From: Anaerococcus senegalensis JC48
Lineage (GTDB): Bacteria > Bacillota > Clostridia > Tissierellales > Peptoniphilaceae
DNA length: 64,000 nt
Assembly (NCBI RefSeq): GCF_000321005.1
Contig: NZ_HE578907.1
Span: 447,930 to 511,929 of the forward strand
Reading direction: 5' to 3'
The translations under genes and the position numbers were made by a program. Of this stretch, positions 20,271 through 35,217 are shown in pieces. The notes under the pieces were generated by a model. That model searched no databases. It was not told where the DNA came from and saw only the letters and a list, made by a program, of their open reading frames with translations. Each line of letters begins with the position of its first letter. Position 1 is the stretch's first letter.

Positions 20271-20628
20271 GGGGATGTTTTGGTTTCGACGTGCTTGTTA
20301 AGATTTAAGCTGCAAGTCGTTTATCAATTCGTAAAAATTGAAAATTAAATATAAAAGCAAACAATAATAGCGAAAGACAATTCGCATTAGCTGCCTAATT
20401 TAGGCAAGCAGCAAATAAAAATTAAGCCACAATAATTTTTATTTGTTTCATAATTTTATGTGGCAACTAATGTACAAAGCTTTGAGTATATTTAGTATTT
20501 ATGAAGCTAGTCTAGTAAGTTATTTGTAAGTAGATAAGTGCTAGATGAATTTAAAATACTTACTAAACTTGTAGATGCTTTTATTAAGACTCGTGCGGAT
20601 ACGGGTTCAAATCCCGTCATCTCCACCA
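20271..20628 (+). ncRNA. ssrA: Transfer-messenger RNA (tmRNA)
   Basis: A one-piece tmRNA of 358 nt for trans-translation. GGGGATG at the 5' end pairs with CATCTCC before the encoded ACCA at the 3' end, forming the alanine-type acceptor stem. GGTTCAAATCC forms the T-arm. The tag frame runs from 20357 to 20398 and encodes ANNNSERQFALAA then TAA, ending with the LAA degradation signal. The last 17 nt (20612-20628) belong to the 58-bp repeat that flanks the integrated element, so integration leaves the gene functional. Confidence 0.97.
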
Positions 20629-20669
20629 TACATATTATAAACCTTGATTTTTCAAGGTTTTATTTTTTT
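20612..20669 (+). repeat. attL: 58-bp direct repeat at the ssrA 3' end
   Basis: This 58-bp block is identical to 35160-35217. It covers the last 17 nt of tmRNA, a short spacer and the whole tmRNA terminator (AAACCTTGATTTTTCAAGGTTT plus seven T). The element's integrase is encoded at the far end. This is the classic arrangement for a tyrosine recombinase using ssrA as attB. Confidence 0.93.
20638..20669 (+). terminator. tmRNA terminator
   Basis: AAACCTTGA and TCAAGGTTT pair around TTTT, followed by a T-run. The copy at 35186-35217 is identical. Confidence 0.85.
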
Positions 20670-20671
20670 GA

Positions 20672-20696
20672 GGTACTAAAAAGGTACTAAAAATTT
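20672..20696 (+). repeat. Integrase arm-type site candidate, left end
   Basis: Two tandem GGTACTAAAAA units followed by TTT, 3 bp inside attL. The same 25 bases occur in the same orientation at 35040-35064 near attR. Short tandem sites at both ends of an element with an Arm-DNA-bind integrase are typical of arm-type binding sites. Confidence 0.6.
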
Positions 20697-20840
20697 TATC
20701 ATCTTTTTATCATCTCTTTTGATTGTTTCAACGTTTATATTTAGCCATTTAAAAAATCATTTTTTTATTTTTTTATTTTGTTAAATATTTTTTATTTTTT
20801 CTTATTAATTAAAGTCCTTTTCAATCTCCATTTTCCAATA

Positions 20841-20890
20841 AAAAAAGCACTCAATACAGTTTTTTTATTTCTGTATCAAGTGCCTTTTTT
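20841..20890. terminator. Hairpin terminator at the left end of the element
   Basis: GCACT..ATACAG pairs with CTGTAT..AGTGC around an A/T-rich loop, with T-runs on both sides, so it can act in both directions. Its loop region resembles hairpins at 35277-35324 and 35657-35708. The stretch from 20697 to 20994 otherwise shows no gene. Confidence 0.7.
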
Positions 20891-20994
20891 GGTGTTACCT
20901 TGTAACATCATTTCACTTTTTATTATTATATTTCATTTCTTGAAATTTTGTCAATTTTATATTTTTTATTTCCTAGAGTTTATATTTTTTATGT

Positions 20995-21000
20995 TATAAT
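20995..21000 (+). promoter_or_regulatory. Extended -10 promoter of the type I toxin
   Basis: TGTTATAAT (TATAAT with an upstream TG) lies 48 bp before the toxin start. A good -35 is not visible, consistent with an extended -10 promoter. This leaves a leader of about 40 nt. Confidence 0.5.
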
Positions 21001-21047
21001 ATTTTTGTTATCGTTCCTATACTGATATCAGTTAGGGGGTGATTCAT

Positions 21048-21152
21048 TTGAACAACTTTCTACATTCTCTCTTAGTGTCAATCATGGGTGCTATAATTTC
21101 TCACTATATCATCAAATGGTTAGATTGCCACTATAACAATAACGATAATTAG
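21048..21152 (+). CDS. Fst-family (par-type) type I toxin peptide
   Basis: A 34-residue hydrophobic peptide starting at TTG, 8 nt after AGGGGGTGA. The core LLVSIMGAIISHYIIKWLD is a single membrane-spanning helix followed by a polar tail CHYNNNDN, the layout of Fst/PepA1-type membrane toxins. It is followed by a 9-bp stem terminator at 21165-21194. A 14-bp repeat (ttgaacaactttct) at the toxin start recurs beyond the terminator, as in plasmid par loci. Expression is expected to be blocked by the convergent antisense RNA. Confidence 0.8.
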   Translation: MNNFLHSLLVSIMGAIISHYIIKWLDCHYNNNDN

Positions 21153-21164
21153 CCTAAACAAAAA

Positions 21165-21194
21165 AGACGGGAGTTCGTGTCTCTCGTCTTTTTG
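21165..21194. terminator. Shared terminator of toxin mRNA and antitoxin RNA
   Basis: AGACGGGAG and CTCTCGTCT form a 9-bp stem (one G-T pair) with a 7-nt loop. T's follow on the plus strand and an A-run precedes it, giving T's on the minus strand, so it can end both convergent transcripts. Confidence 0.8.
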
Positions 21195-21222
21195 CGTGTT
21201 CATTGAACAACTTTCTTTTCTC
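21165..21222 (-). ncRNA. Type I antitoxin RNA (RNA II-like)
   Basis: A minus-strand promoter is visible at 21229-21234 (TATAAT), with TTTGAT 18 bp upstream. Transcription from about 21222 would cross the second copy of the 14-bp direct repeat (21203-21216) and stop at the shared terminator, giving a convergent RNA of about 60 nt. Because the repeat is direct, the RNA is complementary to the toxin start region through the repeat, the par-locus mechanism. Existence of the transcript is inferred. Confidence 0.65.
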
Positions 21223-21235
21223 ATGTACATTATAT

Positions 21236-21571
21236 TATCTTTTACCTTTAAAATCAAATTTATTTATTTGATATTGTAAAAGCAAAAAACGACAATTTGT
21301 TATGCCGTCCTTTGGTTAAAAATAATTTATATATCTATATGACTATATTATACACATTAGATTTTTAGTTTCAACTATTATTTTTTGGAGTTTTTTCAAT
21401 TGTAGATTGATTGACTTTTTTTATACCTTAAATTCTTCATCATTTTAACTATATACATTTTAATTTCTCTAATAATAGAATTGTATTAGCATAAATATAA
21501 AATCGCTTATATCTCAAATAAAAGAGCCTTATTTTCATACTCATTTATTAATTTTAAAATTTGGAGATTAT
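21236..21571. other. Intergenic stretch without a recognised gene
   Basis: AT-rich sequence between the antitoxin promoter and the sigma-like gene. No credible frame with a ribosome binding site and no clear structured RNA is seen. It contains TTTGGAGATT at 21560-21569, a shorter form of the 14-mer repeated elsewhere in the element. Confidence 0.6.
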
Positions 21572-22360
21572 TTAAGGTTTATTTTTATATCCTGCCCTTA
21601 TTTCTTTTTTAAAATCTTTCATAAAGTTTTTCATACACTTTTTTTCTCTTTTTTCTCTTGCAAATAATGTCGCCCATATTTGAGGATCTTTATTATTTGC
21701 TTTTGTTGTTTTATCCAATGAGTAATTAGTAGCTTTTAGATAACTTATTTCATTTTCTTGATAATATTGCTCTTTATATTCTTTGAATTGTCTACAGCTC
21801 TTTATCTTTATTTTTATGTTTTGCAAATTACGTCCAATTTGAGTTTTTGATAAGCCTATTTTCTTTTCTATTTCTCTATATGATAAATCATAGATATAGG
21901 CTAGTTTTATAAGTTCTATTTCTTCATCATTGAGTAAAATTTTAATATTTGAAATTATATCTTTATTTTCACATTCTTTGAATACATCTGCTTTTTCATC
22001 TTCTAGTAAATCAAGTCTAGTTACTTTTTCATCTTCATCTTCCATTGACTTTAAAAATTCGTCAAGGCTTGTATCAGTATTATAATCAAGTCTATATCGT
22101 GTTATTGATTTTATATAAGAAATCGCATAGGTTGAAAATGAGTACCCTTTTTCTATATTAAAGTTTTCAACTGCTTTCAATAAGGCTATAAATCCCTCTT
22201 GTTCTAGTTCTTCTTTATCGTGTATTTCTGCTATATAATAAGGTCTTATGCCTATGTATATTAAATTATAATTTTTTAGAGCTATTCGGTTTCTTAATTC
22301 TATATCTTTTGTTTCCTGATACTCACTTAATAATTTTTCATTATCTCCATAAGTAGACAA
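21572..22360 (-). CDS. Sigma-70-like factor encoded by the element
   Basis: A 262-residue protein. Residues about 48-85 (ELEQEGFIALLKAVENF, YSFSTYAISYIK) match sigma-70 region 2. Residues about 148-190 (LNDEEIELIKLAY, LSYREIEKKIGLSKTQIGRNL) match the region 4 helix-turn-helix. No region 1.1 or 3 is evident. A lysine-rich tail of about 60 residues follows. Such factors drive element-specific transcription in mobile elements and phages. It is monocistronic near the left end, and its target promoters are unknown. Regulator versus true sigma factor is undecided. Confidence 0.75.
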   Translation of the reverse strand: MSTYGDNEKLLSEYQETKDIELRNRIALKNYNLIYIGIRPYYIAEIHDKEELEQEGFIALLKAVENFNIEKGYSFSTYAISYIKSITRYRLDYNTDTSLDEFLKSMEDEDEKVTRLDLLEDEKADVFKECENKDIISNIKILLNDEEIELIKLAYIYDLSYREIEKKIGLSKTQIGRNLQNIKIKIKSCRQFKEYKEQYYQENEISYLKATNYSLDKTTKANNKDPQIWATLFAREKREKKCMKNFMKDFKKEIRAGYKNKP

Positions 22361-22888: not shown

Positions 22889-23143
22889 TTATGATATACA
22901 CCCTTTATTTCTCCTATTATTTTTTTCATTTTGATAATCTTCTTTGGAGATTATAAGTGCTTTATCATTTTTTACTAATGCTATTATTTCACTATCTAAT
23001 TTATTTGTTTTTTTAAAAAATACTATATCACCTTTTAATATATTTTTAATATCTCTATCAGCTTTTATTAAGAAATCTATACCGTCAAATATATCAAGAA
23101 AGCTTATTTTATAAAAATCACTTTTCATTGTATTTATTTCCAT
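22889..23143 (-). CDS. Small protein resembling an S24/LexA-like beta domain
   Basis: An 84-residue protein. The segment FLIKADRDIKNILKGDIVFFKK..SEIIALVKNDKALI (about 24-67) resembles the GDIVLV...IVVALVDGE beta-strand pattern of S24/LexA-type domains. There is no HTH and no obvious Ser/Lys catalytic pair, so it would be a truncated or non-catalytic version. It is the last of three small genes on the minus strand, 6 bp from its neighbour. The similarity is weak and the function unknown. Confidence 0.45.
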   Translation of the reverse strand: MEINTMKSDFYKISFLDIFDGIDFLIKADRDIKNILKGDIVFFKKTNKLDSEIIALVKNDKALIISKEDYQNEKNNRRNKGCIS

Positions 23144-23149: not shown

Positions 23150-23470
23150 TCACCTTTCTTGTCCATACTCTATTACATCTTCATTTATTGCTTTTAATAA
23201 TTTTAAGGTATGACTACAAGCCTGACTATACATTATATCGGTTATTGATATATTATTATAAAATTGTATTTTTAGATAAACGCCTATTTTTGTTGTGCCT
23301 ATTTTCACCGTTGGAAATCCCTCACATAGAGTTATTTCATAGCCTTTTGATGTTTTTTCTCTTTTACTTCCATATAGCAATATATCTTTTCCTTGATTTC
23401 TTATTTCTTTTAAATAAATTTCTTTGAAGTCGTCTATTATTTTAAATATTTCTTTTTGATCAACGTACAT
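23150..23470 (-). CDS. Unknown protein, paralogue of its upstream neighbour
   Basis: A 106-residue protein not recognised from known families. It aligns along its whole length with the product at 23472-23804: shared features are a start with (I/F)F..ID..KEIY, then CEG.PT..IG...I.VYLKI......NISIT. Both are about 105-110 residues with no membrane segment. It is preceded by a TTGGAGAT ribosome binding site. Tandem duplication inside a mobile element suggests an interaction with a variable host or phage factor, which is speculation. Confidence 0.6.
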   Translation of the reverse strand: MYVDQKEIFKIIDDFKEIYLKEIRNQGKDILLYGSKREKTSKGYEITLCEGFPTVKIGTTKIGVYLKIQFYNNISITDIMYSQACSHTLKLLKAINEDVIEYGQER

Positions 23471-23471: not shown

Positions 23472-23804
23472 TTAGATCTCCAATAGTTTTTCTTCTCTCA
23501 TATTCATTTCATTTTCCATTATCATTTTTCTTATTTCGCTATAATGGTCTTTTGCTTTTGTGATTAATAAGTTAGTTATGGAGATATTTCCAAATAATTC
23601 TATTTTTAAATATACTCTTATTGGGCTTACTCCTATTCTTATTGTTGGTGTACCCTCACACATTACGACTTCACGTTTATTTTCTGATTTTTCTAATCTA
23701 ATGCCTTTATTTAGTAGTTCAGCACCATAGTTTTCTATGCCATTTATGTATATTTCTTTTATTTGGTCTATTGTTTGAAATATTGTTTTTTCTGTAATTT
23801 CCAT
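23472..23804 (-). CDS. Unknown protein, tandem paralogue
   Basis: A 110-residue protein homologous to the product at 23150-23470 (shared CEG-PT-RIG and VYLKIE-FGNISIT blocks, about residues 48-77). It ends 1 bp before its paralogue, so the two are co-translated. Predicted alpha/beta, soluble and mildly acidic. No known family was recognised. The block CEG.PTI.IG..PI.VYLKI is the best query for a search. Confidence 0.6.
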   Translation of the reverse strand: MEITEKTIFQTIDQIKEIYINGIENYGAELLNKGIRLEKSENKREVVMCEGTPTIRIGVSPIRVYLKIELFGNISITNLLITKAKDHYSEIRKMIMENEMNMREEKLLEI

Positions 23805-23886: not shown

Positions 23887-24078
23887 TTATATATTGTTTT
23901 TTTCAATATATTCTTTTACAGCTTTTCTTATTAGTTCGGTTTTTGTTATTTTTTCCAATTTAGCAATTTTTTTTATTTCTTTATCTAATTTTTCATCTAT
24001 TCTTATGCTATAGATATGTCTTTTCTTTTCGTTTGCTTTCATTGGTGGACGTCCTTTTTTTACTTTATCTAGTCCCAT
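23887..24078 (-). CDS. Ribbon-helix-helix (CopG-type) regulator
   Basis: A 63-residue protein with a basic N-terminus (KKGRPPMKANEKKRH) followed by a ribbon-helix-helix domain: beta strand HIYSIRIDE, then two helices ending TKTELIRKAVKEYIEKN. It lies between the minus-strand paralogue operon and the divergent plus-strand module, so it may control both. An inverted CATAC...GTATG pair sits in the intergenic region at about 24150-24169 and could be its operator. Confidence 0.8.
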   Translation of the reverse strand: MGLDKVKKGRPPMKANEKKRHIYSIRIDEKLDKEIKKIAKLEKITKTELIRKAVKEYIEKNNI

Positions 24079-24301: not shown

Positions 24302-24856
24302 ATGTTAGATAGTGTGAAAAAGTTAGAAAATGATTATGATAATTTTATTAGTAATCGTGATAAGCAAATTGGAGATATTGAAGATAAGATTGATGATAAT
24401 ACCATTGAAATTAATAAGCTTAAAAAAAGATTAAGTAATCCTGATGATATTGACAGTTATCTTGATATTAATAGGGAAATTGAGAAAAAGCAAAAAGAAA
24501 TTAATGATCTAAAAGTTTTAAAGTCTAACTTAAAAGCTAAAAAGTTTGATATTAAAGCTTATGAAAAAAGTGTTATTGATGAAACTACTTCTTATTTAAA
24601 AAACAAGGAAAAAGAAGTTTTGAATTTATGTAAAACTGTAGATAGTTTAAATTCTGATGTTTGGAGCGTAGTTAATAAGTCGACTGATCTTATTGGAGAT
24701 ATTTATAGAAATGAAACTAAAACTGATAAGGGTTACTGGACTGAAAGAAATATATCTAATGAGCTCGATGACCAAACAAGATTCTTTTTGAAAAATATTG
24801 TTGAAACTTCATATTATAGAAATCGTTACATGAAAGAAAAGGGAGAAGACAAATGA
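24302..24856 (+). CDS. Unknown coiled-coil protein
   Basis: A 184-residue protein with a long heptad-rich coiled coil from about residue 3 to 85 (e.g. IGDIEDKIDDNTIEINKLKK) and a second helical region to about 130. It has a short polar C-terminal domain and no membrane segment. A good AAAGGAG site sits before ATG, and its end overlaps the next gene by 4 bp (ATGA). It heads the plus-strand module of the element. A scaffold- or packaging-related role would fit a phage satellite but is unsupported by recognisable motifs. Confidence 0.6.
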   Translation: MLDSVKKLENDYDNFISNRDKQIGDIEDKIDDNTIEINKLKKRLSNPDDIDSYLDINREIEKKQKEINDLKVLKSNLKAKKFDIKAYEKSVIDETTSYLKNKEKEVLNLCKTVDSLNSDVWSVVNKSTDLIGDIYRNETKTDKGYWTERNISNELDDQTRFFLKNIVETSYYRNRYMKEKGEDK

Positions 24857-25182
24857 AAGAAAACAATGGTTCATTTAACTTGGTAAATGATTATGATAAT
24901 GATAGTGAATTATTAAAATCTATTAATGACAATTTAGAAACTATCGCATCAGTAGCAACAGGAAAATTAGAAGAGGATGAACTTAGAAAATTCGTTCATA
25001 AGTTAGATAACAACAATATTGAAGAAATGTCCCAAAGTAATTTAAATAAACTTTTTAAAAAAATTTCAGACGATATTGAGGAAAAAGATGAAGTAATTTA
25101 TCATAATAAAAGTAGGGACGATTATAACAAACTATATAATGATCCAGATGTTAGAGATTGGTTAAGAAAATATGAATTTTAA
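24853..25182 (+). CDS. Unknown acidic protein
   Basis: A 109-residue acidic protein, mostly helical, with the C-terminal motif LYNDPDVRDWLRKYEF. It overlaps the upstream coiled-coil gene by 4 bp and is therefore translationally coupled. No known family was recognised. Strict coupling suggests the two products act together. Confidence 0.6.
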   Translation: MKENNGSFNLVNDYDNDSELLKSINDNLETIASVATGKLEEDELRKFVHKLDNNNIEEMSQSNLNKLFKKISDDIEEKDEVIYHNKSRDDYNKLYNDPDVRDWLRKYEF

Positions 25183-25192: not shown

Positions 25193-25618
25193 ATGCAAAA
25201 ATTTTATTCAAATTTAGTTAAGTATAAACTGAAAGGATATATCTATGCCCAAGGTTTTATTATGTGGGCTGATGAAAGAATTAATGAATTAATTAATAAT
25301 AAAACATTAGCTTTTGATAATGACAATTCACATAATGAGTTGATTGGAGATAATGACCCATCAAGTATTGGTGATGAAATAGATATGTTGAGGACTAACA
25401 TCAAAGAGAATGAAAGTATTATTGAAGAGATTGATTGTGCCTTTAATAACATAAGTGAAGCCTATAAAGATATAACATTAGTGATCTATGGAATGCCTTA
25501 TAAAAATAATAAGATACAAGCTTTAAAGGATAGATATCATTATAGCAAGGCTAATTTATATAACATAGCTAACGATACATTGAAACATCTTTCTTTGAGT
25601 TTGTTCGGTAATTATTAA
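25193..25618 (+). CDS. Probable phage-type transcription regulator (ArpU/RinA-like, sigma region 4-like HTH)
   Basis: A 141-residue protein. The N-terminus (KYKLKGYIYAQGFIMWADERINELI) and the C-terminal helix-turn-helix (about 105-135, ALKDRYHYSKANLYNIANDTLKHL) resemble late-gene activators of Firmicutes phages. It lies 10 bp after the previous gene and is the third gene of the plus-strand module. In phages such regulators switch on packaging genes; here nothing packaging-like follows except a GC-rich palindrome. The assignment is tentative. Confidence 0.5.
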   Translation: MQKFYSNLVKYKLKGYIYAQGFIMWADERINELINNKTLAFDNDNSHNELIGDNDPSSIGDEIDMLRTNIKENESIIEEIDCAFNNISEAYKDITLVIYGMPYKNNKIQALKDRYHYSKANLYNIANDTLKHLSLSLFGNY

Positions 25619-25812: not shown

Positions 25813-26220
25813 ATGAAAAATTATGTAAAAAAAATCATTTTTGTATGTGGTTTTATCGGTTCTGGTAAAACTACTTACGCAAATAAACATTATAAAACTG
25901 TTACTGACCTTGATTTTATGCCTGAATTTTCTAAGAAAAAGGATCAAATAAATCTTACTTTGAAATTATTAAAATATAATGATAAAGTATGCCATATTAC
26001 TTGTTTTCCTACTGATGAGGAATTACAAGCTTTTAAAAATTATGATGTAGATTTTATATTGATTGATACATCATTAAAACAAGCTAAAACAAACATATTA
26101 ATTAGAAATAGAGATAGGGATATAGCGAACTTGAATAACGTACTATTAGCAAATCAAAAGTATAAATCAAAGTTTAAAGATTCTAATATCCCGTGGCGTA
26201 AAATAAGGGTGTTTAATTGA
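25813..26220 (+). CDS. P-loop kinase-like protein
   Basis: A 135-residue protein with a Walker A motif GFIGSGKTTYA (about 12-22) and a following strand ending in Asp (TDLDF). The later region FILIDTSLKQAKTNILIRNRDRD (about 73-95) is an arginine-rich lid-like segment. The size and layout match small nucleotide/polynucleotide kinase-like P-loop proteins found in phages. The substrate is unknown. A hairpin with T-run (AGGGTAC/GTACTCT, 26221-26246) follows immediately. Confidence 0.7.
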   Translation: MKNYVKKIIFVCGFIGSGKTTYANKHYKTVTDLDFMPEFSKKKDQINLTLKLLKYNDKVCHITCFPTDEELQAFKNYDVDFILIDTSLKQAKTNILIRNRDRDIANLNNVLLANQKYKSKFKDSNIPWRKIRVFN

Positions 26221-26246: not shown

Positions 26247-26663
26247 ATTTGATGAATTATCACCTCTAATCTATAAAGGTTTTCATTATAGAGTTTTTTT
26301 CCTTTCCTTAAAATTTTTTGGTATGTTACAAGGCTCTATTTTGAGTTTTAAGCGATTTTAGTATTTAAGCCATATAAATATATTGGTTTATATTATAAAT
26401 CGTCTGTACGCTTAAATTATTAATTATTTTTAATACTTCCAAGCGATTGGAAATTAATTTTTAAGATATAGATTAAAATCTCCGATGTTTTATATCAGTC
26501 ATAAGATCTAATATATTTTTTGATCTCTAATAGAAAAATTAAATCAGTCAAAGCTGACACATTTATATTTTAGAAAATCTTAGTAAACCTTAGCATTTTT
26601 CAATTCAAAATTTGACTAATTCATGTATTTATAATTAATAAAATTATAGTATAATATTTTATA

Positions 26664-26809: not shown

Positions 26810-27076
26810 TTAATTATAATGCCCTTTACATTGGAGAATTACAAGGCTATCACCGTCAATGAAATAAACCAACCTATGTTCTTTGTCTATTCTCCTACTC
26901 CATAAGCCTTTTAAATTTTCTTTTAAAGGCTCGGGTTTTCCTATCCCCTCAAATGGATTTCTTTTTGTATCTTTGATTAATTGATTAATTCTTTTAAAGT
27001 TCTTTTTATCTGCTTTTTGCCAATATAAATAATCGTTCCAAGCATCAAAATCCCATTTCAAACTATTAATTTTCAT
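26810..27076 (-). CDS. YoeB/Txe-family mRNA-interferase toxin
   Basis: An 88-residue RelE-superfamily toxin that cleaves mRNA on the ribosome. Diagnostic YoeB pattern: WNDYLYWQKADKKNFKRI, PFEGIGKPEPLK and SRRIDKEHRLVY; the C-terminal His-Tyr (GHYN) is present. The start at the ATG encoding MKINSLKWDF is chosen to match the family length. The frame is open for eight more codons upstream, inside the antitoxin gene. It overlaps the antitoxin end by 11 bp. Confidence 0.92.
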   Translation of the reverse strand: MKINSLKWDFDAWNDYLYWQKADKKNFKRINQLIKDTKRNPFEGIGKPEPLKENLKGLWSRRIDKEHRLVYFIDGDSLVILQCKGHYN

Positions 27077-27326
27077 CTTCAATAATCTCATTTTCAACAA
27101 GTTTCATATTACCTTTTTTGTACTCGTTGAATTTTTCTTCAAGGTATGCAATATTATTTTTATTATAAAATGGGTCTGCTGATACCTCAAACGGGATTTT
27201 ATATTCCCTACCTAATTTTTTTAAATAAATGTTTATAGCACTTGATAAAGAAATGCCTATATCATTACATACTATTTCAGCTTGTTTCTTTACTTCGTCA
27301 TCTACTCTTAAATTTATTTGTGCCAT
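27066..27326 (-). CDS. RelB/DinJ-family antitoxin
   Basis: An 86-residue antitoxin: an N-terminal ribbon-helix-helix DNA-binding domain (AQINLRVDDEVKKQAEIVC) with the DinJ pattern GISLSSAINIYLKKL and IPFEV, then an acidic toxin-binding tail. It is the first gene of the module and presumably autoregulates it with the toxin. YoeB toxins elsewhere often pair with Phd/YefM antitoxins, so this is the RelB/DinJ-paired arrangement. Confidence 0.92.
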   Translation of the reverse strand: MAQINLRVDDEVKKQAEIVCNDIGISLSSAINIYLKKLGREYKIPFEVSADPFYNKNNIAYLEEKFNEYKKGNMKLVENEIIEDEN

Positions 27327-28291
27327 ATTATCACCTCTTAATTGTATTATATCATTATTATATGATTTGTAAAGATATATTATATTATTATTATTTCTTT
27401 TAAAGTTAAAATAAAAATATGAGTTCGTCTTTAATTTAACATCTTAGAGTTTTATACTAACAATTTCTAACAATTTTATATAATCAAGTTATGCCAATTT
27501 CTAAAATCTTAAATCATTGACGAGCGTTTATATTTCAACGATATATCTGTTTTAATACCCCCTCAAAAATTGACTTTAATTGATATTTTAAAGTGTTTAA
27601 TTTTATACTAATAATCTACTAACATTTTATAGATATAAATTTAGGTTTTCTTAGTAGTATTTTTTTATATATATAAAATGTTTCCAACATTTTCCAACAA
27701 TATTTCAATCTATTGTCAACATAAGCTTTTAAATACTAGGATTTTCTAGGTTTTTACTCGGTATAAGTATATATGTTATTTTTTTATCAGCATAGGCTTT
27801 TACACTCACATTTTCCAACATTTTTGTAATAGTGTAGGTTTATGTAGGTTTTAATAACAAGTTTTAACAGGTTTTCTGTCCTATATTTTCCATTATTTTT
27901 TATGATGATATATTGAGATTTGTTCAGGTTTTTAAGGTTATGAAATGTTAGTAAAATGTTAGCATTTGTTAGCATAGCTTTTTATGTTATGTTTTGTTAG
28001 TACTTTGTTATTGTTTTATCAACATAAGCTTTTATAACAGGTTTTGTAAGGTTTTATATATAAATATTTTCCACCTTTATCAACCTTTTTTGTTTCAGGT
28101 TTTTTCAGGTTTAATCGGTATAAATATATTAGAGATTATAAGAAGTCATAATTTGAGTTTTAAGGCTTTCAAGATATTAAGTCATATATTTATATACCCA
28201 ACATAAAACAAATTGAATAGGCTTTATAATATGAATTATTTTGCCTATCTAAATACCTTTACTATCTCCAATCTGATATATACAATAAAAA
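27327..28291. repeat. 1-kb noncoding repeat-rich region (possible origin or regulatory region)
   Basis: No credible protein gene. A 16-bp unit TCAACATAAGCTTTTA occurs exactly at 27716-27731 and 28019-28034, and with 2-3 changes at 27787-27802 and 27969-27984, all in the same orientation. CGGTATAARTATAT occurs at 27759 and 28116. AGGTTTT and TTTTCCAACA words recur many times. Such iteron-like AT-rich regions are typical of origins or partition sites. Confidence 0.5.
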
Positions 28292-28331: not shown

Positions 28332-29036
28332 TTATTTCATCTTTGGAGATTGCAAACGACTTTTATATATCTTTATTAGTTCATCTTGTAATAAACTTTC
28401 AAAGTCGTCTTTATACTTATATACTTCATTACAAATTTTATCAGATATTTTTTCTTCTTCTTTTTCTCCCAATTCTGCATATTGCCCATACGTTGCCTTT
28501 TCATCTTTTATCAATAAGTCTATATACTCACTTGTAATCTTTTGCTTAATGATTATGTTTATAATCTCTTTTGCAGTTATGCCCGTTTCGTCTATATCTA
28601 ATAAATAGGGCAAGTATATAAAATCATTTTTGTAACCTTGTTTTATAAAACTGGTTTCAAGTTTTTCAATACGTTCTTTTGTTTCGTCTGATGATTTCAA
28701 AACATCTTGATATGCTTTTAGTGTTTTATTAAATGTGTTTGTGTCCTTTTCTTCTTTTTCATTGTAGCTTTTATTATAGGCTTTAAAATAAAAATTCATT
28801 TTTTCTTCATTGTTTAGTGTGTCATTTTCAATTAAAGAAAGTTCCTTTTGAATATCTATCACTTCAATAGCTCTTGATATACTCTCAACCTTTGATAAAA
28901 CGTCATTATATGCCCTTTCGTAACCGTGCCTATATCCTGCCATATAGTTAGCATTATAATCTTCTATCCCGTCAAGTTTTGATAATTCAAGTTGTTTGTT
29001 TTCTTGTTTTAAATATTTTTCTTTATCTGTATTCAT
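28332..29036 (-). CDS. Unknown soluble protein of the element
   Basis: A 234-residue, largely helical and acidic protein. Residues about 30-50 (NYMAGYRHGYERAYNDVLSKVESI) share a GY..(G/E)A(Y/F)(N/D)D(V/M) pattern with the 81-residue product at 29677, suggesting a common helical motif. No enzyme signature was seen. It is the last gene of the operon running from the Cro-like gene. Its leader contains the 14-mer TTTGGAGATTGTTT (29092-29105) that also occurs upstream of rep. Confidence 0.55.
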   Translation of the reverse strand: MNTDKEKYLKQENKQLELSKLDGIEDYNANYMAGYRHGYERAYNDVLSKVESISRAIEVIDIQKELSLIENDTLNNEEKMNFYFKAYNKSYNEKEEKDTNTFNKTLKAYQDVLKSSDETKERIEKLETSFIKQGYKNDFIYLPYLLDIDETGITAKEIINIIIKQKITSEYIDLLIKDEKATYGQYAELGEKEEEKISDKICNEVYKYKDDFESLLQDELIKIYKSRLQSPKMK

Positions 29037-29103: not shown

Positions 29104-29664
29104 TTATAATTCTTCTAATACTCTTTTAGGTTTTTTCTCAAAATTTAGAAAGTCGCCTAAATTATTCACTCCGTTTTTTAAATCTGAAAATAAATAATTT
29201 GTATCTTGTAAAATAAAATAGATCACATTGACTATATAATCATAGCCAATATTATTTTTTGTTTTCTCGTCTTCTATCAGCCAATCAATGTTATATAAAA
29301 CAATTGAAAGCTTTTGAATTTGCTCTACACGTTCAATAATTGTGTTTAATGTTGTTAGTTCTACATCGTCATAAATTGACCCGTCTAGTTCATCAAATAT
29401 ATAGCCATACTTTATTAAATTTTCCCAATCTACAAGCTTATTTATTATCCTTTCACTCAATAACTCATGATTTTTAATAATCATATTGTGCAAAATCTCC
29501 AAGCTTTCGATTATAGTGTTTGTATAAGTAAAACAATCAAAGCCTAATGCTCTTTTAGTGAAATAATAGCCTTTGAGCATTAAATCAATATTTTGTAATT
29601 GTATAAAAGTTTTGTCTATAATTCTTTTTTCTTCATCAAGTTTTATAGTTTTTTCTTTCTCCAT
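29104..29664 (-). CDS. Unknown helical protein of the element
   Basis: A 186-residue mostly helical protein without membrane segments or recognised motifs. It follows the 81-residue gene by 12 bp and has a GGGGAG ribosome binding site. Base composition matches its neighbours. Confidence 0.5.
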   Translation of the reverse strand: MEKEKTIKLDEEKRIIDKTFIQLQNIDLMLKGYYFTKRALGFDCFTYTNTIIESLEILHNMIIKNHELLSERIINKLVDWENLIKYGYIFDELDGSIYDDVELTTLNTIIERVEQIQKLSIVLYNIDWLIEDEKTKNNIGYDYIVNVIYFILQDTNYLFSDLKNGVNNLGDFLNFEKKPKRVLEEL

Positions 29665-29676: not shown

Positions 29677-29922
29677 TTAAGCTTTATTTTTCTTTGAATT
29701 TTTAAGGTTGTCCATCGCTAGCTCTATGCCACTTGTTGAAATATCCCTAACAGCTCTTAAATAATCGATAAACATATTGATATTTTTGTTTGGTTTATCG
29801 TCTTTATATTCTTTGTAATTTTGTCGTTTTAAATATTCCAATGATGAAAACATATCATCAAAAGCTTCATTGTAGCCATAAATAAAGGCTTGTTTTTCCC
29901 TTTCAGTCATTTTATTTTCCAT
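29677..29922 (-). CDS. Small unknown protein with GY-helix motif
   Basis: An 81-residue helical protein. The N-terminus REKQAFIYGYNEAFDDMFSSL resembles the motif in the 234-residue product two genes downstream. A TAGGAG site precedes ATG. Function unknown. Confidence 0.5.
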   Translation of the reverse strand: MENKMTEREKQAFIYGYNEAFDDMFSSLEYLKRQNYKEYKDDKPNKNINMFIDYLRAVRDISTSGIELAMDNLKNSKKNKA

Positions 29923-30013: not shown

Positions 30014-30487
30014 TTATATACGTTCATAATCTCTTATCATTTTCTTAGCTATTTCAATAATCTTATCGGGGTCATCAATCATTTCTTTTGCCTTTTGGTC
30101 AGTTACATACCCCCCATATTTTCTAATTGACGGTAGCACTTCATGAGTAACCCAACGTTTAAATCTTTTTGCGTTTTCTTGGTTTGACCCAAATATCGCC
30201 TCATAAAGTCCACTTTCATTTATCAATAACATTCTTCTAATATTTTTATTAGGTTCAACTGGTGTAGCTAAACGGACGAACCTAGTATAATCAATATTTT
30301 GTGGGTCAATCTCCATATAGTTTTTCTTATTTAAAAGTTTTCTCATGTTGGCAGTTTCTTTATATCCCAAAACTTTTGAAACATCTTTACCAACGAACCA
30401 AGGTTCGCCATCTTTATCTGTCATAATCCTAACCGACTTAAATTCGTTATCTTTAAAAAAATCTTTTATAGTCAATTCATTTTTCAT
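30014..30487 (-). CDS. BRO-N domain protein (phage antirepressor-like, truncated)
   Basis: A 157-residue protein. The BRO N-terminal domain covers most of it: GEPWFVGKDVSKVLGYKETANM (about 27-48), LLINESGLYEAIFGS and RFKRWVTHEVLPSIRKYGGYV (about 114-134). Full-length antirepressors carry a further C-terminal KilA-C/ANT domain, which is missing. Such proteins counter CI-like repressors or bind DNA. A duplicated 30-bp fragment lies past its stop, hinting that recombination truncated it. Confidence 0.85.
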   Translation of the reverse strand: MKNELTIKDFFKDNEFKSVRIMTDKDGEPWFVGKDVSKVLGYKETANMRKLLNKKNYMEIDPQNIDYTRFVRLATPVEPNKNIRRMLLINESGLYEAIFGSNQENAKRFKRWVTHEVLPSIRKYGGYVTDQKAKEMIDDPDKIIEIAKKMIRDYERI

Positions 30488-30608
30488 TTTAACCTCATCA
30501 TATTTTGCTCTCTATTTTACGTTTTAAGGCTTTTTTATATGTTAGTTATATAAATATATGTCTATACCTATATTTTTAATTCTAGTCTTATTCTGTGAAT
30601 CATTTCGC

Positions 30609-30914
30609 CTATTGTATGCCCTCATTGATAGCTTGATTTTTATTTTCTACTTCTATTTTGTCAGTCGCGTTTTTTTGACTTCTTACCAAATCATAAATAA
30701 TAGTTTCTAAATCGTCTACCTCGTCTTTTATTCTATCAACGGTTATATTTACAATATAATCAAAGCCTTTCATTCTATCTTTATCTACAATTACTTGATC
30801 ACTCTCTTCAACCGTGCCTTTAAAATATAGCAAATCTTTCAAGGCTAATACGTCCATACCTAAAGTGTCTATATTGTTTCTTAAAGCGTTGTGATTATAT
30901 TTTGTTGTGTCCAT
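30609..30914 (-). CDS. Unknown protein in the replication operon
   Basis: A 101-residue soluble protein of unknown family, acidic and helical (e.g. RIKDEVDDLETIIYDLVRSQKN). It lies between the DnaC-like gene and the BRO-N gene, each about 120-130 bp away. It is preceded by a GGAG site in TTGGAGAT. Confidence 0.5.
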   Translation of the reverse strand: MDTTKYNHNALRNNIDTLGMDVLALKDLLYFKGTVEESDQVIVDKDRMKGFDYIVNITVDRIKDEVDDLETIIYDLVRSQKNATDKIEVENKNQAINEGIQ

Positions 30915-31047: not shown

Positions 31048-31764
31048 TTATAATTTTTTCCTAAAACTATCACCATTTAATTGGTAAAGGTTCATAGCTC
31101 CGTTCATTCTATCCAATATTTGTTGAGGAGTTTTATTCTCATTAGAGCCACCCCATCTTTTAATCAATTGTTTTGCATTGTAATTTGATGTTATAAAAAG
31201 CCTATTACCTCGATTCATAGTTTCATCAATAACCCTTTTAATTGCACCTACGCTCCATTTATTGTCTGTATCTCCTAGCTCGTCTATAAATACTAAATCA
31301 TGAGAGCCTATTTTTTTTATAATATCTTCGGGTCTTTCTGGAGATTTGGTATCAAAAGCTTTTGTTATCTCGTCAACCATTCCCATTTCACTTGAAAAAT
31401 ATAAGGTTTTATTATAATTTTTGACTATCTTTTTACAAGTTATCCCAATAAGAGTTGTTTTCCCTATTCCCGTTTCACCAATTAAGCCAATGCCCTTTCT
31501 AGTTCTTTTATAGTTTTTAACGTATTGTGATAAGTCTCTAATCATCTTGATGTTATCTTTATTTTCTATCAAGTCGGAAAACTCATATTTCTTAGCATTT
31601 TCTGGTAAAGATGAATAATCACCCTCACCCTTTTTCTTATAATAACTTTTAGATGTTTCATTGATTCGTTTTTGTAAATCTCTACATCTTTGTTTATATC
31701 GTTCTTCACCTAACTTTGAATATCCTTTCTCGTTTGTATTGTAATCTTCCATAGGTTTTTTCAT
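31048..31764 (-). CDS. DnaC/IstB-type helicase loader ATPase
   Basis: A 238-residue AAA+ ATPase. Walker A is GETGIGKTTLIG (about 97-108), Walker B is LVFIDELGD (about 152-160), and a sensor-1-like FITSNYNAKQL follows, as in DnaC/DnaI-type loaders of phages and plasmids. It would load the host replicative helicase at the element's origin. Its ATG directly follows the rep stop (TAAATG), so it is co-translated with rep. Confidence 0.88.
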   Translation of the reverse strand: MKKPMEDYNTNEKGYSKLGEERYKQRCRDLQKRINETSKSYYKKKGEGDYSSLPENAKKYEFSDLIENKDNIKMIRDLSQYVKNYKRTRKGIGLIGETGIGKTTLIGITCKKIVKNYNKTLYFSSEMGMVDEITKAFDTKSPERPEDIIKKIGSHDLVFIDELGDTDNKWSVGAIKRVIDETMNRGNRLFITSNYNAKQLIKRWGGSNENKTPQQILDRMNGAMNLYQLNGDSFRKKL

Positions 31765-32655
31765 TTACCAGCCTAATCCTTTCGTAAAATTATTTATATA
31801 TTCGTCTTGTTCTGATACCTTATCAGAATAATTGCCCTCTAATACTTTGATAAAATTAGTAGGTTTCACAAACCAATCAATCGTGATTCTAAAGTCATTT
31901 ACATAGCCTTTTAAAAAATTACTGTCTTTTATCTTATCAATAGCCTCTAGAACTTTCTCCAAGCCATGTTCATTTATCCTTGCCCTTAACATTTGATACC
32001 TTTGTGTATTGCTATTTAAAGCTTGAACTTTTGGTATATTCACATCAAGGTTATTCCATTTATCCAATATTTTTTCTAAAGATTCTTTACTTAATTTATT
32101 TGAATTATTATTTTTGATTTCTTCATCTTCATTTTCAGAATTATTTTTAAATTCGTGATTTTCATCTTTGACCTCGACATCACGACTATCCTTATCTGAA
32201 CTCTTCTTATCTAAACTAATCTTATCTAATCTTATCTTATCTGTGTTAACCAATGGTAAACCATCGGTTGCCACTTGGTTGCCATCTGGTTGCCAAATGG
32301 TTGCCATATTTTTTTCATTAATGTAATATCGCTTATTTCTAACGTTTATAAGAGATAATTCATCTTTATAAATAGTTTCATTGTATCTGTCCTTTCTTAA
32401 TTGGTTTGACTGTAAAAAATCTCTAACAACTAGTACGCCACTTTCAAAAACATAAATATATCCTAGTTTTTGTAGCTCGTATAAGTTTTCTTCATCGGCG
32501 TTTATTACATTCATATACATTCTGTAATTGTTGGAAAATCCGTCATCATCAACTAATAAGCCAATATGAAAATATAATAATTGAGACTTAATACTCATAG
32601 AAAAAAACTTGTCTGATTGTATTAATTCTTTTGAAAACATTCGTCTATTTGCCAC
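31765..32655 (-). CDS. Phage-type replication initiator (DnaD-like replisome organizer)
   Basis: A 296-residue protein starting at GTG (residues ANRRMFSKELIQSDKF), the standard beginning of phage replisome organizers, with AGGGGG 8 nt upstream. The frame stays open for 20 more codons upstream only because of the iterons. The N-terminal winged-helix region (about 1-110, LLYFHIGLLVDDDGF) is followed by a polar linker and a C-terminal DnaD-like helical domain (about 190-290). The linker is encoded by five 11-bp iteron units (32254-32308). It is paired with the DnaC-like loader directly downstream. Confidence 0.85.
   Translation of the reverse strand: MANRRMFSKELIQSDKFFSMSIKSQLLYFHIGLLVDDDGFSNNYRMYMNVINADEENLYELQKLGYIYVFESGVLVVRDFLQSNQLRKDRYNETIYKDELSLINVRNKRYYINEKNMATIWQPDGNQVATDGLPLVNTDKIRLDKISLDKKSSDKDSRDVEVKDENHEFKNNSENEDEEIKNNNSNKLSKESLEKILDKWNNLDVNIPKVQALNSNTQRYQMLRARINEHGLEKVLEAIDKIKDSNFLKGYVNDFRITIDWFVKPTNFIKVLEGNYSDKVSEQDEYINNFTKGLGW
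32254..32308. repeat. Iteron cluster inside the rep gene (5 x 11 bp)
   Basis: Five in-register 11-bp units related to TGGTTGCCATC lie within the rep linker coding region. They match the ten-unit array upstream of rep. An origin inside the initiator gene is known for several phages. Confidence 0.75.
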
Positions 32656-32672
32656 TTTTCCCCCTTTCTTTC

Positions 32673-32782
32673 TGGTCGCCACTTGGTTGTCATCTGGTCG
32701 CCACTTGGTTGTCATCTGGTCGCCACTTGGTTGTCATCTGGTTGCCACTTGGTTGCCATATGGTTGCCACTTGGTTGTCAAT
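32673..32782. repeat. Iteron array upstream of rep (10 x 11 bp)
   Basis: Ten contiguous 11-bp units: TGGTCGCCACT and TGGTTGTCATC alternate three times, followed by TGGTTGCC- and TGGTTGTC-type units. One unit per helical turn places all copies on the same face of DNA. The array ends 17 bp before the rep GTG, so it is both a probable origin and a site for rep autoregulation. Confidence 0.85.
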
Positions 32783-32826: not shown

Positions 32827-33024
32827 TTAAAATTCTTTTTTTACTATCTCCAAATCATCAAGACTTAAATTATATCTTTTGATTAAATAGTCGGCAGGTA
32901 TTCTGCCATTAATTGTTAAATATCCGTCCTTTTGTAATTCGGCGTTTAATTCTCTCATACACTTATAGGCTTTTGATCTATTAACGTTTAATAGTTTCAT
33001 TACTTGTTTAAAGTCTAATAACAT
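32827..33024 (-). CDS. Excisionase-like small HTH protein
   Basis: A 65-residue protein with a winged-helix/HTH (LLDFKQVMKLLNVNRSKAYKCMRELN) and a C-terminal RIPADYLIKRYNL segment, as in small Xis-like proteins of Firmicutes mobile elements. It lies 3 bp after the Cro-like gene, where PICIs carry xis. Excisionase activity is inferred from position and fold; a plain regulator is the alternative. Confidence 0.65.
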   Translation of the reverse strand: MLLDFKQVMKLLNVNRSKAYKCMRELNAELQKDGYLTINGRIPADYLIKRYNLSLDDLEIVKKEF

Positions 33025-33027
33025 TTT

Positions 33028-33228
33028 TTAGTCCTCCATTTTTACAATATTTTCAACTTCAACTTCAAGTGCTTTAGCCAGTTTATTAATTATATTAGGT
33101 TTAGCATAACCACGTTGTAAAATCACCCCTAACCATTGACGGGATACTCCCATCAATTCGGCTAACGTTCCATTGTTCAAATTCTTTTCAGTCATACATA
33201 ATTTAATATAGGACTTGTTTAAATTCAT
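33028..33228 (-). CDS. Cro-like HTH regulator
   Basis: A 66-residue HTH_3 protein: helix-turn-helix at about 18-40 (GTLAELMGVSRQWLGVILQ). It is the first gene of the leftward replication operon and is divergent from the CI-like repressor. An AAGGGGG ribosome binding site precedes ATG. It likely acts as activator or Cro-type switch for the operon. Confidence 0.8.
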   Translation of the reverse strand: MNLNKSYIKLCMTEKNLNNGTLAELMGVSRQWLGVILQRGYAKPNIINKLAKALEVEVENIVKMED

Positions 33229-33277
33229 TCTTTACCCCCTTAATTATAAATTTTAGTATTCACTTCACTTTAATTTC

Positions 33278-33306
33278 ACTGTAATACTTTTTTTTTACTT
33301 TGTCAA
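33278..33306 (-). promoter_or_regulatory. Leftward promoter (cro-xis-rep operon) with AGTGAA repeats
   Basis: A perfect -35 TTGACA (33306-33301) on the minus strand, a 17-bp spacer, and TACAGT (33283-33278). Three AGTGAA words follow downstream (33280-33260), candidate operator half-sites for the CI/Cro pair. Confidence 0.6.
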
Positions 33307-33316
33307 GGCTTTTGTG

Positions 33317-33345
33317 TTGAAGTTAAAATTTTATTCTGTTATAAT
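33317..33345 (+). promoter_or_regulatory. Rightward promoter of the CI-like repressor and integrase
   Basis: TTGAAG at 33317-33322, a 17-bp spacer, and TATAAT at 33340-33345, 20 bp before the repressor ATG. It is back to back with the leftward promoter. Confidence 0.75.
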
Positions 33346-33364
33346 TTCAATAAGGAGAATAAAC

Positions 33365-33931
33365 ATGAATAATACAATCGGTGAAAATATAAAATCATTT
33401 AGAATTATGAGAGGACTGACACAAAAACAAGTAGCAGAAAATACCAATTTATCTATAACTTTTATATCTCAAATAGAAAACGGTATTTCAAATCCATCAA
33501 TTGAAAGTTTAGAAAAAATAGCTGATATTTTAAGAGTTTCTGTTGTAGACTTAAAATCTAAAAATGGTTTTACAAATTTTAGAAGCGAAAGGCTAAGGAT
33601 TGTAAAACTATTAACTGGTTTAACAAGAAGAAACAGAATAAAATGGGATATAAAGAAAGAAAAATTAATAAAATGTAAAACTGAAATTTTTGGTAACATT
33701 TATTACTTAACTTTTTCAGAAACTGAACATAAGAATTATAGCTATATTGATTTTATTTTAGAAAACAAAGAAAAAAATATGAAAATTAATTTTTTAGAAA
33801 ATTCTACAGATGAAGTCTATGAGGCTACAATTAGTTTAATATCAACTATAATGCACCCTTATGAATATAACACTGAAAAAGAACAAGCAAATCAGATTAT
33901 AAACGACCTTGAAAACTTACTAGACGAATAA
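33365..33931 (+). CDS. CI-like XRE-family repressor
   Basis: A 188-residue protein with an N-terminal XRE HTH (GENIKSFRIMRGLTQKQVAE, then LSITFISQIENGISNPSIESL) and a C-terminal domain of about 110 residues without the S24 peptidase motifs. A repressor lacking S24 would not be cleaved by RecA; derepression by another protein is the PICI (Stl) strategy. The start follows AAGGAG; an upstream in-frame ATG at 33314 falls inside the promoter. The stop is 2 bp before the integrase ATG. Confidence 0.85.
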   Translation: MNNTIGENIKSFRIMRGLTQKQVAENTNLSITFISQIENGISNPSIESLEKIADILRVSVVDLKSKNGFTNFRSERLRIVKLLTGLTRRNRIKWDIKKEKLIKCKTEIFGNIYYLTFSETEHKNYSYIDFILENKEKNMKINFLENSTDEVYEATISLISTIMHPYEYNTEKEQANQIINDLENLLDE

Positions 33932-33933
33932 CC

Positions 33934-35034
33934 ATGCCAGCATATAAAGACAAAGATAGTGGAAAATGGTTGTGTAAATTTTATTACCAAGACGGGAACG
34001 GAAATAAAAGACAAAAAAAGAAAATGGGTTTTGATACAAAAAAACAAGCTTTAGAATATGAAAGAGAATATCTTTTAAAACGTCAAGGTCAACCTACTAT
34101 GTTGTTATCTAGCTTTATAAATCTATATGAAACTGACCAATTTCCACAATTAAGACAAAACAGTATAAGAACTAAAGGTTCAAGATATAAAAAAATTATA
34201 GAGACTTTTCCCGATATGCCTTTGAATGAAATATCTCCAAGAGATATTAAAGCTTGGCAAAATAAACTTATTAGCCTTGACCACTCTAATGGATATATAA
34301 AAGCATTGCAAACAGAATTTTCAATACTTTTAAATCATGCAGTTAGATTTTACGGATTGCCTAAAAATCCCATACACATGGTGAAGCTTGCAAAAAATCC
34401 TAACTATATACCCCCTAAAATGCGATATTGGACGTTTGAAGAATTCAGACAAGTATATAATCAAATAGACAATATAAAATCAAAAACAGCTTTAAATTTG
34501 CTTTATTTTACGGGTATGAGAAAAGGCGAACTTGACGCCCTAACATGGGAAAAAATAGACTTTGAAAACAAAACTATATTGATTGATAGATCTCTTCAAA
34601 GATTAAAGGGTAAGGATGTAGTTACACAAACGAAAACTTATGAAAGTCGTAAAATAAGCCTACCTAATACGACGCTTGAAATTCTTGGAGATTATAAAAA
34701 TCATTGCTACAACATCAACAAAGAAGATAGAGTTTTCCAATGGGAAAAAAGATATGTTGAAAATGGTATAAAACAAGGTGTAGAAAAAGCCAATCAAGAA
34801 ATTAAAGAATATAATAAAAGTCATGAAGATAAAAAGCCATTGATCAAAAGAATACACGTTCACGGATTGAGACACTCTCACGCTAGTTATTTGATAAATC
34901 ACAATATCAATATTGTCTTAATCTCCAAAAGACTTGGACACAAAAACACATCAATCACCCTTGATACTTATAGCCACTTTTTCCCTATTGCTGAAAGTAA
35001 ATTAATTGATGTAATGAATAATGAAAAACTATAA
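33934..35034 (+). CDS. int: Tyrosine recombinase (site-specific integrase)
   Basis: A 366-residue phage/ICE-type integrase. The N-terminal arm-binding domain (KDKDSGKWLCKFYYQDGNG) is followed by the core-binding SAM-like domain (about 65-150). The catalytic domain has R in TGMRKGELDALTW, HGLRHSHAS (H-x-x-R), RLGHKNTSITLDTYSH (H and nucleophile Y), so all catalytic residues are intact. It is encoded 125 bp from attR. Integration into ssrA is inferred from the flanking repeat. Confidence 0.96.
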   Translation: MPAYKDKDSGKWLCKFYYQDGNGNKRQKKKMGFDTKKQALEYEREYLLKRQGQPTMLLSSFINLYETDQFPQLRQNSIRTKGSRYKKIIETFPDMPLNEISPRDIKAWQNKLISLDHSNGYIKALQTEFSILLNHAVRFYGLPKNPIHMVKLAKNPNYIPPKMRYWTFEEFRQVYNQIDNIKSKTALNLLYFTGMRKGELDALTWEKIDFENKTILIDRSLQRLKGKDVVTQTKTYESRKISLPNTTLEILGDYKNHCYNINKEDRVFQWEKRYVENGIKQGVEKANQEIKEYNKSHEDKKPLIKRIHVHGLRHSHASYLINHNINIVLISKRLGHKNTSITLDTYSHFFPIAESKLIDVMNNEKL

Positions 35035-35039
35035 AAAAA

Positions 35040-35064
35040 GGTACTAAAAAGGTACTAAAAATTT
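35040..35064 (+). repeat. Integrase arm-type site candidate, right end
   Basis: Two tandem GGTACTAAAAA units plus TTT, identical to and in the same orientation as 20672-20696. They start 5 bp after the integrase stop. Confidence 0.6.
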
Positions 35065-35159
35065 AAAAACTATATAAAAATAGTGGATTTTAAGGGAGAT
35101 TAAAAAATAAAGATGTTGAATTTTCAACGTTGTAAATTATAGTAAACCGTCTTTCTGTC

Positions 35160-35217
35160 TCCCGTCATCTCCACCATACATATTATAAACCTTGATTTTT
35201 CAAGGTTTTATTTTTTT
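35160..35217 (+). repeat. attR: second copy of the 58-bp direct repeat
   Basis: Identical over 58 bp to 20612-20669. It contains the last 17 nt of tmRNA and the tmRNA terminator, marking the right boundary of the element. Confidence 0.93.

Follow-up and report, generated by a model that had tools for sequence, protein, structure and literature searches.

A putative helper-dependent phage satellite in ssrA of Anaerococcus senegalensis and its σ-bearing clostridial relatives

We analysed a stretch of 64,000 nucleotides of the Anaerococcus senegalensis JC48 genome (contig NZ_HE578907.1, positions 447,930 to 511,929; hereafter the window, numbered from its first letter), in which an integrated element of ca. 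14.6 kb occupies positions 20612–35217. The element is likely a helper-dependent phage satellite that works in the manner of the phage-inducible chromosomal islands (PICIs) of Gram-positive bacteria, as its gene order and its relatives suggest. Phage satellites are best known from Proteobacteria and Gram-positive cocci, and no description of a clostridial σ-bearing satellite family was found among the literature matches listed, which comprised open-access titles and the openings of abstracts. The main interest lies in the family behind the element, i.e., a σ-bearing backbone that occurs both with and without a two-gene shell cassette.

The element in ssrA and its core genes

The element lies between perfect 58-bp repeats on the forward strand, attL (20612–20669) and attR (35160–35217). 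Since attL begins inside the gene for transfer-messenger RNA (tmRNA; ssrA, 20271–20628, forward strand, recognized by ARAGORN and as Rfam RF00023), at its 3′ end, ssrA, the integration target, retains its 3′ end. For an empty-site test, the two flanks were joined and aligned to nine related loci. The joined query crossed the junction unbroken in six of them, revealing a readable empty site; in the other three, one of which is the occupied site of the related genome G020, the alignment halted at the end of the repeat or 2 bp short of it. These results confirm the element and define its ends exactly. The att repeats, the insertion in ssrA and a host in the Peptoniphilaceae had all been proposed in a preliminary description of this DNA and were borne out; the host genus, Anaerococcus, is consistent with that family. 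Two identical 26-mers on the forward strand, at the left (20671–20696) and right (35039–35064) ends, are candidate integrase arm repeats, and TTTTAGTA-type repeats that resemble them are present near both ends in several relatives. The GC content of the element (26.2%) differs so little from that of the rest of the window (27.1%) that composition is uninformative here.

At the right end, the forward strand encodes a CI-like repressor (33314–33931) in which a helix-turn-helix (HTH) domain was the only one found (PF01381, 7e-16; no Peptidase_S24 match) and a tyrosine integrase (33934–35034; PF00589, 3.5e-26). Leftward from CI, on the reverse strand, follow genes for a Cro-like HTH protein (33028–33228), which has relatives in the mapped loci described below, a small HTH protein (32827–33024), a DnaD-type replication initiator, Rep (31765–32715; phrog_5708, 2e-44; no Pfam match), a DnaC-type helicase loader (31048–31764; phrog_50, 1.6e-23), a 101-aa protein (30609–30914; no informative Pfam or PHROGs match) and a Bro-N antirepressor-like protein (30014–30487; PF02498, 4.9e-24; phrog_130, 2.3e-42), and then three unknown genes, one of them for a 234-aa protein. 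Iterons of 11 bp form an array across the rep start (32671–32780), a candidate origin, and a further cluster within rep (about 32252–32317). Beyond the 234-aa gene come a YoeB-RelB pair and four rightward genes, for a coiled-coil protein, a 109-aa protein, an ArpU-like regulator and a P-loop protein. The ArpU-like regulator (25193–25618, forward strand; phrog_36, E 9e-5) is 29% identical to the product of a prophage gene of genome G030 that is located, as judged by eye, upstream of terminase genes. The far-left group, read leftward, encodes a ribbon-helix-helix regulator, two paralogues, an 84-aa protein and, at the end opposite int, a σ70-family factor of 262 aa (21572–22360, reverse strand; PF04542, 2.4e-9; phrog_351, 1.2e-20; TIGR02937 above the cut-off).

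The integrase, the CI-like repressor, the divergent Cro-like gene and the DnaD-type rep with iterons and a DnaC-type loader were all part of the preliminary description and are present, with the Cro-type HTH below the Pfam cut-off and the DnaD type assigned by PHROGs only. The gene that it called Xis-like does encode a small HTH protein; its HTH_17/AlpA-like match is below the Pfam cut-off and phrog_989 (7.8e-19) is a family of unknown function, and we keep the protein as a candidate excisionase. The σ factor, the ArpU-like regulator, the Bro-N antirepressor and the YoeB-RelB pair are additions to that description.

All 22 proteins of the element were scanned with Pfam and 20 of them, i.e., all except Cro and the integrase, with PHROGs. 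No terminase, portal, capsid, tail or relaxase family stood out, in agreement with the earlier claim that recognizable virion and conjugation genes are absent; a relaxase, named in advance as a sign that would speak against a satellite, had no Pfam match. The exceptions were weak. The P-loop protein (25813–26220) matched a small-terminase PHROG over residues 6–28 (E 1.3e-5) and a large-terminase one (E 0.009), the coiled-coil protein (24302–24856) matched tail/virion PHROGs (E 0.01–0.6), and the P-loop of DnaC matched VirB4/VirB11 models at E 0.002–0.003, far below the cut-off. Searches for capsid and scaffold genes found nothing in the element, and defence families gave weak matches only, chiefly to coiled coil. 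Matches of the unknown proteins to solved structures were coiled-coil, designed or otherwise unconvincing and were not used. At near-identity, the DNA of the whole element matched no phage or plasmid.

In Gram-positive PICIs such as the SaPIs and EfCIV583, int and the repressor gene are co-transcribed and are followed in the opposite direction by a divergent regulator and xis-like and replication genes, the att site is specific and a full structural module is absent, according to the accessible text of PMC6092414. The window's element likewise has att repeats with an integrase, int and a repressor gene facing a divergent regulator, a putative xis-like gene and rep, and no complete structural or lytic module. 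In contrast to these PICIs, it has a DnaD-type Rep and DnaC instead of a primase-Rep (pri-rep) module with the origin 3′ of rep, its iterons being situated at the rep start and inside the gene; no TerS was found; and σ, Bro-N and ArpU-like genes are present. The definition of a PICI further includes phage-dependent induction and specific packaging (PMC6092414, accessible part). Because the pri-rep module is lacking and induction and packaging are properties known only from culture, the element is called PICI-like here and not a PICI: it likely works like one. Of the PICI-like satellite proposed earlier, the satellite and the gene order are supported, and an identity as a PICI is less certain, given that pri-rep and TerS were not found and that the nearest integrase kin are not known PICIs; they are clostridial elements, several of which carry genes for a scaffold, a major capsid protein and σ. 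The element also lacks recognizable counterparts of the terminase, portal, capsid and tail genes of a temperate prophage, and the capsid, scaffold and terminase genes of a capsid-forming PICI (cfPICI).

Sister elements and capsid-bearing relatives

Relatives were sought in 130 genomes of the family, 31 of them from the window's genus. Besides the window's own, the closest integrases were found in G020 (68%) and G030 (66%). Both elements sit in ssrA and have the int-rep-dnaC order that the preliminary description had recommended looking for at this site. They are ca. 9.3 (G020) and 8.1 kb (G030) long, as set by 17- and 22-bp exact repeats, and they share with the window's element, in the same order, int and the genes for Cro, the small HTH protein, Rep, DnaC, the 234-aa protein and σ. 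The CI protein of G020 is 45% identical to that of the window over 91 residues, and G030 carries a different HTH repressor. G020 additionally has the ribbon-helix-helix gene, one paralogue gene, an ArpU-like gene and, at the position of YoeB-RelB, a Panacea-type antitoxin gene with an adjoining 152-aa gene. A fourth element, in G009, keeps CI, Cro and σ between 22-bp repeats 7.5 kb apart; its integrase is a different one, and by inspection its 604-aa protein resembles a replication protein. No small HTH relative, capsid, scaffold or 234-aa gene was found in it.

Relatives of σ are present in all three other Anaerococcus elements, one of them with an in-frame stop. A σ profile run over the 31 genomes of the genus retrieved four strong matches (window, G020, G030 and G009; E 4e-72 or better). 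None of the remaining matches was better than 7e-26, and the many among them that are about 600 aa long are probably housekeeping factors. No viral relatives were obtained with a first σ alignment, and a wider one retrieved 51 viral loci, mostly by short and weak matches. The σ factor also matched four phage records; two of these are unannotated human faecal phage contigs with weak matches (L203, MT836790.1, 8.7 kb; L204, MT840008.1, 5.4 kb), which might be further satellites.

Integrase relatives were examined in 93 loci (80 retained out of 161 from named genomes and 13 viral contigs). A capsid gene with a product of ca. 280 aa was found in 11 of them; many of the other 82, which lack such a gene in the available and often short sequence, are probably other kinds of element. 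The Peptoniphilus copy of the capsid protein matches phrog_422, major head protein, at 4e-59, the capsid alignment matches a solved phage major capsid protein (E 3e-10), and identity to tailed-phage capsids reaches 47%. Beside the capsid gene is a gene for a DUF4355-type scaffold (at the cut-off), detected in 9 of the 11 loci by tblastn and in all 11 by profile. In the family genomes, the capsid profile had matches in 17 of 130 and in none of the 31 from the window's genus; seven of the nine strong matches (E below 1e-100) are within 4–6 kb of an integrase relative.

Twenty-four loci, hand-picked for close integrase or capsid matches and thus not a random sample, were mapped. Relatives of the small HTH protein occur in 22 and the capsid gene in 18, accompanied in the same locus by int (16 of the 18), the scaffold gene (16) or the σ gene (12). 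All 12 σ-bearing mapped loci outside Anaerococcus also have the capsid gene. The loci of G059 and G058, ended by a contig end or by the stretch taken, hold capsid (and scaffold) genes only, and three loci of the same integrase family (L098, L099 and L101) have too little upstream sequence for capsid genes to be judged. No terminase or portal was recognized, mostly by eye, among leftover frames of at least 150 aa in the 7.6–9.9-kb units, whose bounds were set by hand; in this, the capsid-bearing relatives differ from cfPICIs, which carry packaging genes too. The two leftover frames that were family-searched encode a DnaD-type Rep and an AAA_25 ATPase. Insertion sites across the relatives include the tmRNA gene, the tRNA genes SeC, Thr and Leu, which the repeats overlap or abut, and, by eye, the end of guaA. 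A Neofamilia element ends at the tRNA-SeC gene (L097:11199–11293). Directly adjoining a Peptoniphilus element is a second CI-HTH-integrase set (L127:12344–14346), the pair being perhaps two elements in tandem.

The capsid-bearing relatives resemble SaPIbov5, with its Ccm, and PmCI172, which are satellites with a capsid homologue (accessible parts of PMC6893505 and PMC6092414), and the cfPICIs, a satellite family that makes its own capsids (PMC11389934, likewise in part). Unlike SaPIbov5 and PmCI172, they pair the capsid gene with a scaffold gene and often with σ; the window's element is without either of these two shell genes. In the accessible text of PMC6893505, EfCIV583 is without a recognizable capsid or scaffold gene. 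By description only, and as far as the available summaries go, the element can also be likened to PICMIs, which are small, gene-poor satellites of Vibrionaceae that encode no capsid remodelling, and to Streptococcus satellite prophages, which are integrated, phage-like and devoid of structural genes (PMC6813308).

The window's element shares the clostridial features, i.e., the int family, the CI/Cro/HTH switch, the σ gene at the far end and the same gene order, and, unlike the capsid-bearing branch, has no scaffold and major capsid cassette beside σ. The integrase tree, built from 25 rows, unites the three Anaerococcus elements of ssrA in one clade (100/100). The capsid-bearing Neofamilia element joins them first (99/98), followed by a group that includes a second capsid-bearing element (100/99), and the tree requires one change of capsid state. 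Since the root was placed at the integrase of the resident prophage, this change becomes a loss, and the Anaerococcus elements probably lost the capsid cassette. An Anaerococcus clade was also obtained in the HTH tree (96/88) and, less firmly, in the σ tree (94/90). The G020 σ (two open frames) and the σ and integrase of G108 (split frames) were left out of the trees by length.

The place of the cassette may have been taken by other proteins. The 234-aa gene (28332–29036, reverse strand), whose product has a conserved GYRxGY motif, lies between DnaC and σ, where the relatives place scaffold and capsid, and the protein is kept in the three ssrA elements; the element could thus be a capsid-remodelling satellite in which this protein, the 184-aa coiled-coil protein or the paired 106/110-aa proteins replace the missing genes. 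We consider such a replacement unlikely, as no family or structure match supports it and the G009 element has no 234-aa gene that could be found. The 234-aa protein had no viral relatives.

Free forms of the capsid-bearing relatives are suggested by nine circular-looking viral contigs of 7.7–10.6 kb with exact terminal repeats of 46–127 bp, which usually mark a circular path in an assembly. These contigs represent eight of 72 capsid loci and locus L090, one contig being listed twice (L083 and L205). An integrase match was obtained in eight of the nine and a σ match in six; in five of the nine, σ and int converge, with 188–292 bp between their 3′ ends, the arrangement expected of an excised circle. 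A further contig, 17.6 kb long, is a tandem dimer of an 8.5-kb unit: wherever the two units can be compared (4.9 kb), the sequence recurs without a difference at a distance of 8,513 bp.

A broader reading, to which we give somewhat less than an even chance, is that a family of 7–15-kb satellites is widespread in Clostridia. Their switch would resemble that of PICIs, their replication module would be exchangeable, and a σ of their own would drive late genes specific to the satellite from a dedicated promoter motif. Many members would carry the scaffold and capsid cassette with no terminase or portal and would build shells on the portal and motor of a helper, and the Anaerococcus branch would have discarded these two genes and returned to exploiting the helper entirely. 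If this is true, the capsid-bearing and capsid-free branches would make it possible to study directly the gain and loss of shell genes and the timing of late expression against a helper.

Conserved motif, candidate helper and mode of action

A motif of ca. 50 bp is present in three intergenic copies on the reverse strand of the element: two (26327–26393 and 28139–28205) are not directly before a gene, and the third (30506–30569) lies ca. 19 bp ahead of the start codon of bro. A degenerate pattern of the motif matched none of the fetched loci. Instead, a profile made from the three copies was run over 339 loci (3.94 Mb, some loci overlapping). Apart from a weak match (E 0.025) in an integrase locus of G089 (L063:3866–3926), further matches at E < 0.05 were confined to the elements of G030, G009 and G020; a second, weaker copy in G030 had an E of 0.008 in a smaller search. 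In G020 and G030, the motif precedes the 234-aa gene; G030 also has it ahead of σ, and in G009 it is found beyond σ. The elements that retain it have little else in common than CI, Cro and σ, so one of these three proteins plausibly acts on it. Its reading as a plain late promoter was set aside, the G009 copy being beyond σ and two window copies preceding no gene.

A helper prophage had been suggested as something to seek in the same genome, and one candidate was found. The only Terminase_3 match of the genome lies in a prophage of ca. 40.5 kb, at about C1:717.3–757.9 kb, bounded by an 18-bp repeat and by gene content; TerL_ATPase (PF03354) had no match in the genome. By Pfam, the prophage encodes TerS, TerL and a DUF4355 scaffold, with the capsid below the cut-off, and portal, tape measure, tail, amidase-like and integrase genes were recognized by eye. 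The C-terminal part of its Rep is 60% identical to that of the element over 109 residues, and the Bro-N domains are distantly alike. Of the DNA that prophage and element have in common, the significant part consists of 231 bp at the end of rep (76%), 57 bp within their bro genes and some AT-rich sequence. With four elements in one genus, one of them sharing its genome with a plausible helper prophage, the satellite reading can be tested.

Some features speak for a view of the element as a decayed prophage, i.e., a stranded remnant whose structural genes were lost: its Rep, DnaC, Bro-N, ArpU-like and σ genes are phage-type, the Rep C-terminus is close to that of the resident prophage, and a sister copy has a stop in σ. 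This origin is, however, quite improbable, considering that the att repeats are perfect and the core genes open, that two smaller sisters have the same order at the same site, and that the backbone is unlike those of the prophages read.

An integrative and conjugative element (ICE)-like region is also present in this genome (G000:C1:622001–642000, i.e., 622–642 kb; locus L036), with VirB4-, VirD4- and relaxase-like genes recognized by eye and a gene for a DnaD-type protein; proteins similar to the latter, of about 235–241 aa, are common in the family. Small replicative elements can ride ICEs, and the element might be an integrative mobilisable one, transferred by conjugation through an oriT copied from the ICE and needing no relaxase of its own. 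The element proteins have no relaxase match, the DNA shared with the ICE-like region is limited to 37 bp of low-complexity sequence within rep and some short AT-rich segments, and the relatives bear capsid and scaffold genes; the chance that the element moves in this way is very slight.

For a satellite, the following sequence of events can be proposed. CI would keep the early operon off until repression is relieved, either by a helper phage or by the Bro-N protein. The integrase and the small HTH protein would then cut out a circle, Rep would bind the iterons and DnaC would load the host helicase, giving rise to concatemers. The σ factor, perhaps together with the ArpU-like regulator, would turn on late genes, possibly via the ca. 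50-bp motif, and the helper phage, for which the resident prophage is a candidate, would package element DNA into its own capsids. The scaffold and major capsid protein that some clostridial relatives encode beside σ probably serve to assemble the shell or to alter its size. Having probably lost the cassette, the Anaerococcus branch would rely on the shell of the helper entirely.

Several observations weigh against the satellite reading or its parts. PHROGs gave no credible TerS match in the element, and none of the DNA that it has in common with the resident prophage looks like a packaging site; the helper may be another phage. Only 11 of the 93 integrase loci have a capsid gene, though many loci are short. 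Locus L100, as well as L102, L103 and L115, has a capsid gene and no σ, which is thus not universal, and the G020 σ with the in-frame stop (A. octavius element, L077:15062–15826) may be decaying. The circular forms belong to capsid-bearing relatives and not to the window's element; moreover, four of the nine terminal repeats are exactly 77 bp long, a length that resembles an assembler word, and the repeat of L083 lies between int and σ and could be an att repeat. The root on which the loss of the capsid cassette depends is drawn on a very long branch and is unsure. The window's DnaC groups with prophage DnaC (97/99) and not with that of the sisters, so modules have been mixed between elements. 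Finally, the motif directly precedes a gene in only some places, and its link to σ is a guess.

Other genes and features of the element and its surroundings

The two genes next to the 234-aa gene encode proteins of 81 aa (29677–29922), scanned with Pfam and PHROGs without an assignment, and 186 aa (29104–29664), with insignificant matches only. The type II pair, on the reverse strand as are these genes, consists of a RelB-like antitoxin (27066–27326; PF04221, 3.7e-11) and a YoeB-like toxin (26810–27100; PF06769, 1.5e-39). On the forward strand, the small P-loop protein matches AAA_33 below the cut-off (2.4e-4) and the 109-aa protein (24853–25182) has weak matches only. The 184-aa coiled-coil protein, which we regard as cargo, has no assigned family; no relative of it was found beyond the window's genome among the 130 genomes, and none in phages.

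In the far-left group, on the reverse strand, the ribbon-helix-helix regulator (23887–24078; PF01402, 3.1e-8) has a 37% relative in the G020 element. The 110-aa (23472–23804) and 106-aa (23150–23470) paralogues adjoin each other and are 40% identical; the G020 element has a relative of the 106-aa protein, and the 110-aa paralogue alone had no match beyond the window's genome among the 130 genomes. The 84-aa protein (22889–23143) has no Pfam family, and its best PHROG match is at E 0.13.

Three copies of a ca. 19-bp repeat (27705–28046) are found in a 1-kb non-coding stretch, and two similar copies are present in the G030 element; the stretch could be an origin, a packaging site or a regulatory site. 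A Rep search of the genome contigs yielded 22 pattern stretches and no relative. Three identical-scoring Rep matches in G030 (C1 192768, 255609 and 318450) are exactly 62,841 bp apart, due either to a tandem triplication or to an assembly artefact around a prophage. The flanking chromosome in the window carries a 6S RNA (5193–5361) and an FMN riboswitch (57033–57145).

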